A DNA stretch of 64,000 bases, taken from Candidatus Collinsella stercoripullorum (GTDB lineage: Bacteria; Actinomycetota; Coriobacteriia; Coriobacteriales; Coriobacteriaceae). Under the pieces are notes generated by a model. The model had not been told where the DNA came from. It did not search any database and saw only the letters and a list, made by a program, of their open reading frames with translations. Positions 52,854 to 57,813 of this stretch are shown one piece after another; position 1 is the stretch's first letter, and every line of letters begins with the position of its first letter. The stretch is from NCBI GenBank assembly GCA_019117005.1, contig DXAO01000025.1, forward strand, positions 1 through 64,000, read 5' to 3'. A program made the translations under genes and the position numbers.

Positions 52854-53939
52854 ATGGCAGACAAGAAGCTGAAGGTCGCCTTCATCGGCACCGGCATCAT
52901 GGGGGCGCCCATCGCCGGGCACATCATGGACGCCGGCTACGACGTCACGGTCTACAACCGCACCCGCGCCAAGGCGGATGCGCTCGTGGCGCGCGGCGCC
53001 CGCTGGGCGGACACCCCCGCCGAGGCCGCCGCGGACGCGGACGCGGTGTTCACCATGGTCGGGTTCCCGACGGACGTCGAGGAGCTCTACCTCTCGGGCG
53101 AGGGCCTGCTCACCTGCGCCAAGGAGGGCGCCTACCTCATCGACCTCACCACGAGCTCGCCGGAGCTGGCGCGCGACATCGCCGAGGCGGCCGAGACCAT
53201 GGGCAAGCACGCCTTCGACTGCCCGGTGACCGGCGGCGAGGCGGGCGCGCAGGCGGGCACCCTCACGCTGATCGTCGGCGCCACCGAGGCGGACATCGCC
53301 CCCGTGCGCGAGCTGCTCGAGGCCTTCTCCTCCAAGATCTTCTGCTTCGGCGGCCCCGGCAAGGGCCAGGCCGCCAAGCTCGCCAACCAGGTGTCGCTCG
53401 CGGCCTCCATGGTGGGCATGGCCGACGCCCTGTCCTTCGCCCAGCAGTGCGACCTCGACCTCGCCCTCACGCGCGAGATGATCCTCGGCGGCACCGGCGC
53501 CTCCGGCGCCATGCAGCAGCTCGCCCCCAAGTCGCTCGACGGCGACTGGAGGCCCGGCTTCATGGTCAAGCACTTCCTGAAGGACCTCGGCCTCGCCCTG
53601 CAGGCAGCCGAGGAGAAGGAGATCGCGCTGCCCGGCGCGGACACCGCCTTCACGCTGTACGACATGCTCGAGGCCATCGGCGGCGGGGATCTGGGCACCC
53701 AGGCGATCACCCTGCTGTACCAGGAGGAGTCCGAGGCGGTCGCCGCCGGGCTCGACTGGTCGCTGTACACCTCCGCCCACGAGCACGACGAGGAGTGCGG
53801 CTGCGGCCACGACCACGGCCACGACCACGAGTGCGGCTGCGGGCACGAGCACGGCCACGACCACGAGTGCTGCGGGGGCCATGGCCACGGCCACGACGGC
53901 TCCTGCGGCTGCGGCCACGACCACGGCGAGAGCGAGTAG
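52854..53939 (+). CDS. 3-hydroxyisobutyrate dehydrogenase-like oxidoreductase with His/Cys-rich tail
   Basis: A 361-residue beta-hydroxyacid dehydrogenase. The Rossmann motif FIGTGIMGAPIAGHIM is at the N-terminus, substrate-binding DCPVTGGEAGAQAGTLTLIVG follows, and the catalytic Lys is in GQAAKLANQ. This core (about residues 1-295) is normal in length. The last 53 residues contain 15 His and 8 Cys arranged in CGCGHDHGHDHEC-type repeats, an apparent metal-binding tail I do not know from this family. It may store or deliver zinc or nickel; hypAB nearby is suggestive but 14 kb away. Followed 6 bases later by a small membrane protein gene. Confidence 0.88.
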   Translation: MADKKLKVAFIGTGIMGAPIAGHIMDAGYDVTVYNRTRAKADALVARGARWADTPAEAAADADAVFTMVGFPTDVEELYLSGEGLLTCAKEGAYLIDLTTSSPELARDIAEAAETMGKHAFDCPVTGGEAGAQAGTLTLIVGATEADIAPVRELLEAFSSKIFCFGGPGKGQAAKLANQVSLAASMVGMADALSFAQQCDLDLALTREMILGGTGASGAMQQLAPKSLDGDWRPGFMVKHFLKDLGLALQAAEEKEIALPGADTAFTLYDMLEAIGGGDLGTQAITLLYQEESEAVAAGLDWSLYTSAHEHDEECGCGHDHGHDHECGCGHEHGHDHECCGGHGHGHDGSCGCGHDHGESE

Positions 53940-53945
53940 CCCGGC

Positions 53946-54422
53946 ATGTGGGCCTTCTACATCTGCGCGCTGCTGCTGCTGTTCTTCGGCATCTACATCG
54001 GCTTCATCCTGGGGAGCTCCTGGGGCGAGCGCGCGGTGACGGCTGCGGACTACTGGAAGATGAACGCGGCCGCGATCCTGGCGGCGGTGCTCGCGGGCTT
54101 CGTGCTCGCGGGCGTGCCGCTGCTCTACGGCGCGATCGTCGGCGTGCTCGCGGGATGCATCGCGGGCCTCAAGATGTCGTTCGGCGAGTCCTCGGGACCG
54201 TGGCGCTGGCTCGACCGCTTCATGAACGTGAACCGGTCCCACCGGGAGACGGCCGAGAAGGGCACGGGCGAGGAGCGCCGCCGGCGCCGTCGCGCGGGGG
54301 AGCGGGGCCCCGACCTCATATCGGTGGCGCCCGACCGCCCCTCGTCGGAGGCCGAGCGGGGCGGGGCCGACGCGGCGCGCGGCCGCGCGAGGAAGAACGG
54401 AACCACGAAGGATGCGAGGTAG
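53946..54422 (+). CDS. Small hypothetical membrane protein
   Basis: A 158-residue protein with two or three N-terminal membrane helices (FYICALLLLFFGIYIGFILG, then AAAILAAVLAGFVLAG) and a long, strongly basic cytoplasmic tail (ERRRRRR). I recognise no family. It starts 6 bases after the dehydrogenase stop and precedes the next gene by 4 bases, so it is part of that operon. Confidence 0.75.
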   Translation: MWAFYICALLLLFFGIYIGFILGSSWGERAVTAADYWKMNAAAILAAVLAGFVLAGVPLLYGAIVGVLAGCIAGLKMSFGESSGPWRWLDRFMNVNRSHRETAEKGTGEERRRRRRAGERGPDLISVAPDRPSSEAERGGADAARGRARKNGTTKDAR

Positions 54423-54426
54423 AGTT

Positions 54427-55122
54427 ATGGCAACGGAGCAGGTTCAGGAGCTTTCCGCGGAGGAGGCGGAGCGTCTCGCGTCGGTCGAGGCCGACCGCGA
54501 CGCCCTCGCGGCGCTGGTCGAGGATCTCGCGGGGCACAGCCGCCGCAAGCGCCAGCTGTCCGCGCGCGTGGTGAACCTCGTGGCCCAGCGCGAGCCGGAG
54601 CTGCTCGCCCCCTATATCCCGGACCTCGTCGACGCGCTGTACCGCCCCGAGGCGCAGACCCGCTGGGAGGTGCTCGACGCGCTGACCCTGCTGGTCCCCG
54701 CGCACGCCAAGGAGGTCGGCGCGGCGTACGACGGCGCGGAGGCCGCCCTGTTCGACGAGATCTCCGCCACGCTGCGCCTATCCGCCTTCCGCATGCTGTG
54801 CACCTGGGGCGCCACCGACCGCGGCCGCTCCAAGAAGGTCTGGCCGGTCATCGACGAGGCCATCCAGTGCTACCACGGGGACCTCGAGTACCGCGATATG
54901 CTGGGCTGCCTGCATGAGTTCGCCCAGGGCAAGATCGAGGGGGGCGTCGCCGGGGAGCTCGCCGGCCGCCTGCAGTTCGACGCGGAGAACGGCAAGGGCA
55001 GCTATCTCAAGGCGCGCTCGTCCGAGATCTACGACATGCTGGTCAAGCGGTTCAAGCTCGACCATCCGCAGAAGCGCGCCCGCACCGTCTCCAAGTCCGA
55101 GGACATGGACGACGACGAATAG
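54427..55122 (+). CDS. Hypothetical helical-repeat protein
   Basis: A 231-residue soluble protein made almost entirely of helices, with patterns (LLAPYIPDLVDALYRPEAQTRWEVLDAL) reminiscent of HEAT/ARM repeats. No catalytic motif is visible. Ends in an acidic tail. Start at ATG 54427 just after the preceding stop; an ATG at 54412 overlaps that gene and lacks support. Co-transcribed with the membrane protein and closed by a terminator. Confidence 0.75.
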   Translation: MATEQVQELSAEEAERLASVEADRDALAALVEDLAGHSRRKRQLSARVVNLVAQREPELLAPYIPDLVDALYRPEAQTRWEVLDALTLLVPAHAKEVGAAYDGAEAALFDEISATLRLSAFRMLCTWGATDRGRSKKVWPVIDEAIQCYHGDLEYRDMLGCLHEFAQGKIEGGVAGELAGRLQFDAENGKGSYLKARSSEIYDMLVKRFKLDHPQKRARTVSKSEDMDDDE

Positions 55123-55200: not shown

Positions 55201-56313
55201 ATGGGTCTGATTCAGAAGAAGGACGACGAGGAGCGCGAGGTCATCGAGGGGGTCGAGATCATCGAGCGGTCGGACGTCCCCGACGACCTGCCGCAGGCGG
55301 ACTACGACCTCGTCGCGGGCGAGAGCGCCGAGGACATCGCCGCGGGCTCCGCGGACGAGACCGGCGATGGGGCCGGCCATGCCGAACCCGCCGTCGAGGG
55401 CGATGGCTCCGAGCAGGAAGACGGGGATACCGCGGCCGCCGATGACGAGGAGCCGGCGGACGCCTCGGGCGCCGCCGCGTCCCCGTCCCGCCGCGTCCCA
55501 GCCCCGCTGGTCGCGGTCGCCGTCGTGGCGGTCATCGCCGCCGCTGCCATCGGCTACCTGGTGGGCTCGGGTTCCTTCGGCAGCAAGGGCGCGGATTCCG
55601 CCTCGCTGACCTCCGACCAGCTCGACTGCGTGATCGCCTCCTACACCTACGGCGGCTCCTCGCACGACATCACCGCGCGCCAGGTGATCGAGGCCCAGTA
55701 CAGCCTCGATGCCGTCGAGCAGGAGGACGGGACCTACCCGACCCCCTCGGCCGACACCGCCCTGTCCTACGCGCGCAACCAGATCCTGCTCGCCGAGGCC
55801 GACCAGCGGGGCATCACGGTGAGCGACGAGGAGATGGCCGACTTCGCCGAGCAGTCGCTCGGGACCTCCGATTACGCGACCATGGCCGAGCAGTACCAGC
55901 TGTCCGAGGACCAGGCTCGCGAGGTCGTCCGCCAGCAGGTCACCCTCCGCAAGCTCTACGACCAGGTCGTCCCCGAGAGCGACGCCACCGCGCCCACGGC
56001 CCCGACCGAGCCCGAAAACGGGGACACGTCGACGCGCTCCAAGGAGTACGCGGACTACATCATCGGTCTGCTGGGCGATGAGTGGGACGCCGAGTCCGGC
56101 ACCTGGGCATCCGAGGACGGCGACTTTTACGCCGCGCTCTCCGGGACCGACTTCTCGGCCGACTCCGCGAGCTACGAGCAGGCTCTGACCGCGTACTACG
56201 TGGCCTACCAGAAGTACGCCGAGCAGAGCAGCGGGTACGCGGAGCAGTGGTCGGAGTTCCAGAACGGGCTGTTCGCCGACGCCGATATCGACCTGTACGG
56301 CCTGTTCGCCTAA
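55201..56313 (+). CDS. Membrane-anchored SurA-N-like protein
   Basis: A 370-residue protein with a highly acidic cytoplasmic N-terminus (about 1-95), one membrane helix (about 101-121), and an external helical domain resembling the SurA N-terminal chaperone fold (ALSYARNQILLAEADQRGITVSDEEMADFAEQ). No PPIase (parvulin) domain follows, so it is a chaperone-like form only. AGAAGGAGAG precedes the ATG. Function inferred as folding of exported proteins. Confidence 0.72.
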   Translation: MGLIQKKDDEEREVIEGVEIIERSDVPDDLPQADYDLVAGESAEDIAAGSADETGDGAGHAEPAVEGDGSEQEDGDTAAADDEEPADASGAAASPSRRVPAPLVAVAVVAVIAAAAIGYLVGSGSFGSKGADSASLTSDQLDCVIASYTYGGSSHDITARQVIEAQYSLDAVEQEDGTYPTPSADTALSYARNQILLAEADQRGITVSDEEMADFAEQSLGTSDYATMAEQYQLSEDQAREVVRQQVTLRKLYDQVVPESDATAPTAPTEPENGDTSTRSKEYADYIIGLLGDEWDAESGTWASEDGDFYAALSGTDFSADSASYEQALTAYYVAYQKYAEQSSGYAEQWSEFQNGLFADADIDLYGLFA

Positions 56314-56322
56314 GGTCCGCGC

Positions 56323-57573
56323 GTGCGCGCCCCGATAGTGATGAGTTCCTGCCTGCTTGGAGCCCCTTGTCGATACGACGGGGGCTCCAAGCCCGTTTCG
56401 GCGTGCATGCGGCTCGCCGAGGGCCTGCGCGCGCGAGCGGGCGAGGGGGCGGTGGCCCCCGTCTGCCCTGAGCTGCTCGGCGGCCTCCCGTGTCCGCGCA
56501 TGCCCGCGGAGCGGCGGGGGCGGCGCGTCATCGCGCGCGACGGGACCGATGTCACCCGCGCCTACGCCGAGGGATCGGCGCGCTCGGTCGAAATCGCCCG
56601 CGAGGCGGGCGCGCGCCTTGCTATCCTGAAGGCGAACAGCCCGTCGTGCGGCAGCGGCCGCATCTACGACGGGACCTTCACGGGCCGGCTCGTGCCGGGT
56701 CACGGCACGGCGGCCGAGGCGCTGATGCAGGAGGGGTTGACCGTGGTCGATGAGCGTCTGGTCGGCTATTGCGAGCCGAGTTTCGAGCATCCGGTGGCGA
56801 TCGTGCTGGGAAGCGGGCTGGGGGCGCTGGCAGACCGCGTGCGCGCGGTGCGGCGCATCCCCTACGACGACATCGAGGGCTTCCCGGATGAGGCGATCCC
56901 CGTGGAGGGGCATCGATTCGAGGTGATCGTGGGTACCATCGACGGCGTGCCGGTGGTGGTGTATCCGGGGCGCGTCCATCTCTATCAGGGGTATTCTGCC
57001 CTGCAGGTGACCTCCCTCGTCCGTCACGCGCACCGGCTCGGATGCCGGGACATCGTCCTGACCTGCGCGTCGGGGGCGGTCGGGCAGACCCAGCCGGGGA
57101 CCGTGGGGCTCATCCGCGACCAGCTGAACCTGACCGGGGCGAACCCGCTGGCGAGCGCCGAATGCGTCGCCGCGGCGGAGATCGACGTCCCGTTCATCCC
57201 GATGGCGGGCGCCTACTCCAGCTATCTCGCCGAGTTCGCGCGCGCCGCCGCCGAGGAGGCGGGGGTGCGGCTCGTCGAGGGCGTCTACGCCGGCCTGCTC
57301 GGACCGACCTACGAGACCGCGGCGGAGGTGCGCGCCCTGTCGGTGCTGGGCGCGGACTTCGTGGGGATGTCCACGGTGTGCGAGGCCATCATGGCGCATG
57401 CGCTGGGCATGCAGGTGCTCGGGCTCACGCTCGTCACCAACTACGCGGGGCGCGCGGACAACGCGCACGACGAGGTGCTCCGGGTCGCCGATTCCGGCGG
57501 GGCGGCGACGACCGAGGTGGTGCTGGGCGTGCTGCGGGCGCTGGGCGGCCGCGGGCAGGCGCTTTCCTCCTGA
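56323..57573 (+). CDS. Fusion: DUF523/TudS-like desulfidase domain + purine nucleoside phosphorylase
   Basis: A 416-residue two-domain protein in one frame. Residues 1-145 match DUF523, the family of TudS thiouracil desulfidases: SSCLLGAPCRYDGG with Cys10 and Cys16, PELLGGLPCPR at 49-59, and KANSPSCGSGR with Cys109, the three Cys expected to hold an [4Fe-4S] cluster. Residues about 157-416 are a PNP of the trimeric type: VLGSGLG (161-167), YPGRVHLYQGY, GPTYETAAEVR, and TNYAG with the base-contacting Asn. The PNP half would split purine nucleosides with phosphate. GTG start at 56323; ATG 56341 is an alternative. It begins 9 bases after the preceding gene. Confidence 0.85.
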   Translation: MRAPIVMSSCLLGAPCRYDGGSKPVSACMRLAEGLRARAGEGAVAPVCPELLGGLPCPRMPAERRGRRVIARDGTDVTRAYAEGSARSVEIAREAGARLAILKANSPSCGSGRIYDGTFTGRLVPGHGTAAEALMQEGLTVVDERLVGYCEPSFEHPVAIVLGSGLGALADRVRAVRRIPYDDIEGFPDEAIPVEGHRFEVIVGTIDGVPVVVYPGRVHLYQGYSALQVTSLVRHAHRLGCRDIVLTCASGAVGQTQPGTVGLIRDQLNLTGANPLASAECVAAAEIDVPFIPMAGAYSSYLAEFARAAAEEAGVRLVEGVYAGLLGPTYETAAEVRALSVLGADFVGMSTVCEAIMAHALGMQVLGLTLVTNYAGRADNAHDEVLRVADSGGAATTEVVLGVLRALGGRGQALSS

Positions 57574-57737: not shown

Positions 57738-57813
57738 GCCAACGTGGCTCAGCTGGTAGAGCAACGCACTCGTAATGCGTGGGTCAGCGGTTCGAATCCG
57801 CTCGTTGGCTCCA
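57738..57813 (+). tRNA. tRNA-Thr (anticodon CGU)
   Basis: A complete 76-base cloverleaf: acceptor arm GCCAACG/CGTTGGC, D-loop AGCTGGTAGA, anticodon stem ACGCA/TGCGT around CTCGTAA (anticodon CGU, codon ACG), T-arm GCGGTTCGAATCCGC, discriminator T and encoded CCA. A terminator follows. Confidence 0.97.

Follow-up and report, generated by a model that had tools for sequence, protein, structure and literature searches.

A TudS-type desulfidase domain fused to a purine nucleoside phosphorylase in Collinsella and Atopobiaceae

We have analyzed a gene of Candidatus Collinsella stercoripullorum in which a TudS (DUF523) domain is joined in frame to a purine nucleoside phosphorylase (PNP). The window, which is the whole stretch of DNA that was analyzed, covers 64,000 nucleotides (contig DXAO01000025.1, positions 1 to 64,000) of a 2.2 Mb genome that is 95% complete, and the features at the locus are collected in Table 1. 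The open reading frame contains no internal stops, and its GTG start aligns with the ATG starts of homologues. The gene order in most of the fusion loci fetched is reductase, 158-aa protein, 236-aa protein, 370-aa protein and tudS-pnp. On the plus strand of the window, positions 52854-53939 encode a beta-hydroxyacid dehydrogenase (2-hydroxy-3-oxopropionate reductase or HIBADH-like). Its approximately 50 C-terminal residues are His/Cys/Asp-rich repeats (HECGCGHDHGHD...) that recur at the same locus in most Collinsella and Atopobiaceae relatives, and this tail looks like a metal-binding extension.

Table 1. Features at the tudS-pnp locus (positions in the window)
Feature	Position	Strand	Basis or remarks
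Conserved upstream neighbour, 236 aa, no Pfam match	54412..55122	+	synteny
Conserved upstream neighbour, 370 aa, no Pfam/NCBIfam match	55201..56313	+	synteny
Possible ribosome-binding site AAGG	56312..56315	+	7 bases 5' of fusion GTG, read from sequence
tudS-pnp fusion gene	56323..57573	+	416 aa, GTG start; full-length homologous ORFs in relatives
TudS (DUF523, PF04463) domain, residues 5-144	56335..56754	+	Pfam E 5.9e-39; 6z92 alignment over residues 1-144
Cys10, predicted cluster ligand (= TudS_A Cys10)	56350..56352	+	alignment with 6z92, fusion alignment
Cys48, predicted cluster ligand (= TudS_A Cys43); Glu50 (= TudS_A Glu45) two codons later	56464..56466	+	alignment
Cys109, predicted cluster ligand (= TudS_A Cys104), in S106-P-S108-C109 motif	56647..56649	+	alignment
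Short linker, residues 145-157, conserved C150 and E155-H156-P157	56755..56793	+	alignment of fusions
Purine nucleoside phosphorylase domain (PF01048 / PRK08202), residues 158-404	56794..57534	+	R217, H219, Y221, E331, S350, N373; fold Z 34 vs solved PNPs
tRNA-Thr(CGT), 3' of fusion gene	57738..57813	+	

Two Pfam domains, and no others, were recognized in the protein: PF04463 (2-thiouracil desulfurase), at 133.8 bits against a cut-off of 34.7, and PF01048 (phosphorylase superfamily; E = 9.3e-37), far above its cut-off. The initial annotation had read one uninterrupted frame joining DUF523 to a PNP, and the frame together with these matches confirms that the fusion is real. The C-terminal half also scored 244.3 bits with the NCBIfam purine-nucleoside phosphorylase model PRK08202/NF006054 (cut-off 218). 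PDB searches returned the TudS structure 6z92 over residues 1-144 (E = 1.4e-30) and PNPs down to E = 1.6e-48, with 8swu and 6tk9 as the best solved relatives of the C-terminal half. Because a profile search found no other PF01048 protein in the 95%-complete source genome, the fusion is likely the cell's sole NP-I nucleoside phosphorylase.

The cluster of TudS_A is held by Cys10, Cys43 and Cys104, and catalysis is aided by Glu45, Ser101 and Ser103; its preferred substrate, 4-thio-UMP, has been modelled with the phosphate on Arg17 and with the base and sugar sandwiched by Tyr18, Pro102 and Tyr110 (PMC10611767). Pairwise alignment maps these residues to C10, C48, C109, E50, S106, S108, R17, Y18, P107 and Y115 of the fusion, such that the 4-thio-UMP-binding residues (R17, Y18, P107 and Y115) are retained. 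Conservation was assessed over 86 distinct fusion sequences, one of which ends before residue 54. C10, C48, C109, E50, S106 and R17 are invariant in every sequence that covers them, and a check for loss of cluster cysteines among the homologues accordingly turned up none. Residue 18 is Tyr in 80 fusions and Phe in five, residue 108 is Ser in 79/86 (Ala in five, Thr in two), and residue 115 is Tyr in 84/86. The cluster cysteines had initially been given as 10, 16 and 109. Cys10 and Cys109 stand; Cys16 was rejected as a ligand, since this position is Val in TudS_A and in 38 of the 86 fusions (Cys in 46, Ala in one), and the true third ligand is Cys48. The TudS domain of the fusion thus appears to possess an intact TudS-type desulfidase site, with a predicted cluster and activity.

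In the PNP half, R217, H219, Y221 and H197 are invariant in the 86 fusions, while E331 is kept in 85, N373 in 83 and S350 in 83-85 of them. The window protein itself has the phosphate-site residues R217, H219 and S350 and the 6-oxopurine pair E331/N373, roles that we presume from the family motifs in human PNP numbering. PNPs of the trimeric family take 6-thiopurine nucleosides to some degree, and 6-oxopurine PNPs with the Glu/Asn pair are not known to cleave uridine. Cleavage of thiouridine by the PNP half would be unlikely, because the 6-oxopurine signature is kept. Over the fusions, identity to the window protein averages 55% in the TudS half and 61% in the PNP half, and therefore both halves are under constraint. 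The PNP half superimposes on solved PNPs with fold Z of 33-34 and rmsd of 1.7-2.1 over 245-251 residues; the fold-comparison list was filled by this half, with TudS absent from it, so that the identity of the TudS half is sequence-based. An AlphaFold monomer model built with 90 related sequences had a mean pLDDT of 94.9 and a pTM of 0.93; a fixed arrangement of the two domains in one compact chain is therefore predicted.

Full-length fusions were found in 9 of 45 Collinsella genomes and, counting full-length rows, in 95 of 140 genomes of Atopobiaceae (the family of G048), and the fusion is therefore kept in about 104 of the species searched in these two groups. Three genomes of a second Coriobacteriaceae genus (g57) also carry it, with one further partial copy. 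Among the named carriers are Collinsella tanakaei, C. ihumii and C. bouchesdurhonensis, as well as Olsenella, Atopobium minutum, A. fossor, Thermophilibacter, Tractidigestivibacter, Parafannyhessea umbonata, Olegusella and Kribbibacterium. For the other orders of the class, the matches listed comprised PNP without TudS. No independent fusion turned up at E 1e-55 when 246 Actinomycetota genomes were sampled, a plasmid search gave no match to the fusion with 80% coverage, and phyla outside Actinomycetota were covered only by a contig scan with peptide patterns specific to the fusion clade. The fusion is old. One Atopobiaceae copy (L164, genome G092) is frameshifted near residue 248, which reflects either recent pseudogenization or an error in sequencing.

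In two genomes of family f10 (L020 and L154), tudS and pnp are separate adjacent genes, which looks like a pre-fusion stage. The PNP homologue encoded there, however, has Leu in place of E331 and Ser or His in place of N373; since this 6-oxopurine pair is lost and the phosphate motif is kept, its substrate is probably different. The TudS tree groups the fusion domains in one lineage (99/98), which includes the TudS-only genes of Atopobiaceae genus g28, and the free Collinsella TudS proteins in a separate lineage (100/99). In the free proteins (L022-L034, L147-L153), Lys replaces the phosphate-binding Arg17 that TudS_A and the fusions share, a change suggestive of a second TudS subfamily that prefers another substrate. 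Given this replacement and the separate lineage, the fusion and the free Collinsella TudS may differ somewhat in their substrates.

In the PNP tree, the PNP-only Collinsella genes are scattered over about three positions within the fusion sequences. The fusion/PNP-only label needs four changes in all, two of which are forced by well supported branches. These PNP-only genes occupy the same locus as the fusion and follow the 370-aa gene there. In Collinsella phocaeensis (L011), a decayed TudS persists between the 370-aa gene and the PNP (48.5 bits vs a shuffled maximum of 26.6), and weaker traces were detected at L018 (32.3 vs 23.9 bits) and L019 (27.3 vs 24.6). At L013 and L016 (Collinsella G033 and G020), a foreign gene takes the place expected for the TudS half, after the 370-aa gene and ahead of the PNP-only gene. 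By eye, this gene of about 155 codons resembles the YhcH/YjgK family. Genus g28 is the mirror case: only TudS is left at its locus, and its PNP, a more distant one, is encoded elsewhere.

A free TudS gene is located elsewhere in 7 of 8 PNP-only Collinsella genomes. Free TudS was found in 0 of 9 fusion-bearing Collinsella genomes vs 34 of 36 others (Fisher p = 6e-8, uncorrected for shared ancestry) and in 0 of 95 Atopobiaceae fusion genomes; the fusion and a free TudS are mutually exclusive. The trade of one for the other is not strict, because free TudS is missing from one PNP-only Collinsella genome (G034) and from g49, a PNP-only genus of Atopobiaceae. Each half appears to be replaceable alone, since one half has been lost while its free counterpart sits elsewhere in the genome. 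Tight coupling of the two halves seems dispensable for the same reason, namely that halves were lost in lineages with a free copy of that function.

ThiI makes 4-thiouridine in tRNA. It is encoded by 44 of 45 genomes in Collinsella, including the source genome, and by 134 of 140 in Atopobiaceae, and a source of 4-thiouridine is therefore likely at hand in fusion hosts. ThiI is near-universal, so that its co-occurrence with the fusion does not discriminate. In four Collinsella, free TudS genes lie approximately 5-8 kb from thiI, but this nearness was not used as evidence, as the intervening genes in G005 look housekeeping.

We consider it probable that the fusion is a two-headed salvage protein for RNA turnover, a 4-thiouridine(-monophosphate) desulfidase and a 6-oxopurine nucleoside phosphorylase in one chain. 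The N-terminal TudS domain would hold a [4Fe-4S] cluster on C10, C48 and C109, the free iron of which would take the sulfur from 4-thiouridine, preferably the 5'-monophosphate, released by tRNA breakdown. Water and E50/S106 would then release sulfide and leave UMP or uridine. The PNP domain at the C-terminus, which is probably trimeric as in its relatives, would phosphorolyse inosine, guanosine and their deoxy forms to base and ribose-1-phosphate. RNA breakdown would supply both sites, each with a product of its own; the fusion would set the ratio and expression of the halves, and neither reaction would require it. Intact sites, and the dropping of either half when the genome had another copy of its function, are what two self-sufficient salvage steps would lead one to expect, and would be unexpected if one substrate had to pass both sites. 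Against such side-by-side salvage, the fixed packing (pTM 0.93) and the approximately 104 species that keep the fusion could mean more than co-expression.

The initial annotation had proposed a combined enzyme leading from thionucleoside to thiobase to base, with thiopurine drugs among the possible targets. In such a tandem arrangement, the PNP would free 6-thioguanine or 6-mercaptopurine from the nucleoside and TudS would desulfurize it, possibly after direct transfer. Conservation of the fusion in about 104 genomes, the compact and confident model, and the established tolerance of family PNPs for 6-thiopurine nucleosides are consistent with this reading. We nevertheless regard it as unlikely, as the TudS residues are of the 4-thiouridine nucleotide type and unchanged, no residue supports processing of one substrate by both sites, 6-oxopurine PNPs are not known to cleave thiouridine, and each half has been lost in lineages with a free copy of its function. 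We know of no natural 6-thiopurine nucleoside of bacterial RNA, and the literature searched contained no paper linking a desulfidase with thioguanine. The part of the proposal that is supported is a TudS-type desulfidase fused to a PNP with both sites intact; passage of one substrate through both is not supported, nor are thiopurine drugs as the target. The chance is slimmer still that common gut Collinsella and Olsenella convert thiopurine drugs, or some natural thionucleoside yet to be recognized, to ordinary purines by handing the base between the sites.

It is also improbable that the link serves regulation or assembly, either through the display of three TudS domains on a PNP trimer or through modulation of PNP activity by sulfide state or by the oxygen-sensitive cluster. 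The fixed packing in the confident model and the short, conserved linker would fit such a role, but loci with a PNP-only or a TudS-only gene in place of the fusion indicate that neither half needs the other. We give little credence to a RudS-like action of the TudS domain on another thiolated compound, such as 2-thiouridine derivatives, thiocytidine or intact tRNA; a partner domain can shift TudS specificity, as RudS acts on tRNA (PMC11417400), yet the fusion is devoid of a nucleic-acid-binding domain and its residues match the thio-UMP enzyme. Finally, a frameshift, misassembly or chimeric gene, for which the frameshifted G092 copy might speak and which the initial annotation had named as a point to check, is ruled out by full-length fusions at one conserved locus in many independent genomes, isolates included.

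The two-headed salvage protein would tie the removal of sulfur from RNA nucleosides to purine salvage, and purine nucleoside salvage in the source organism may depend on it. Lineages missing either half offer a natural experiment on the mutual need of fused enzymes. Were the fusion to handle thiopurines after all, it would be relevant to how gut bacteria inactivate drugs. A 2018 report by Aucynaite is said to treat TudS fused to additional domains. No published description of a TudS-PNP fusion was found in the literature searched, which left out most subscription journals, in agreement with the initial annotation, which knew of no described enzyme of this kind. Within the TudS family, stand-alone TudS accounts for 58.9% and RudS for 40.1% (PMC11417400), which by arithmetic leaves about 1% for the remaining architectures. 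TudS-PNP would be the third TudS architecture after these two; it is a new conserved architecture of known enzymes, comparable to RudS.

The fusion shares with TudS (DUF523, PDB 6z92) its family, cluster ligands, catalytic Glu/Ser and nucleotide-binding Arg/Tyr, but TudS is a stand-alone monomer whereas the domain here is fused to a PNP. Like RudS (TudS-DUF1722), a tRNA 4-thiouridine desulfidase, it is a two-domain protein with TudS at the N-terminus. DUF1722 gave no Pfam match in the 416-aa protein, and in place of that partner stands a purine-salvage enzyme, with no RNA-binding module. With trimeric PNPs (NP-I, PRK08202; Thermus 6tk9 and Clostridium perfringens 8swu) it has in common a sequence score above the cut-off, the fold, and the phosphate and 6-oxopurine residues; it would presumably share their trimeric state, and it differs from them in carrying a predicted iron-sulfur desulfidase domain at its N-terminus.
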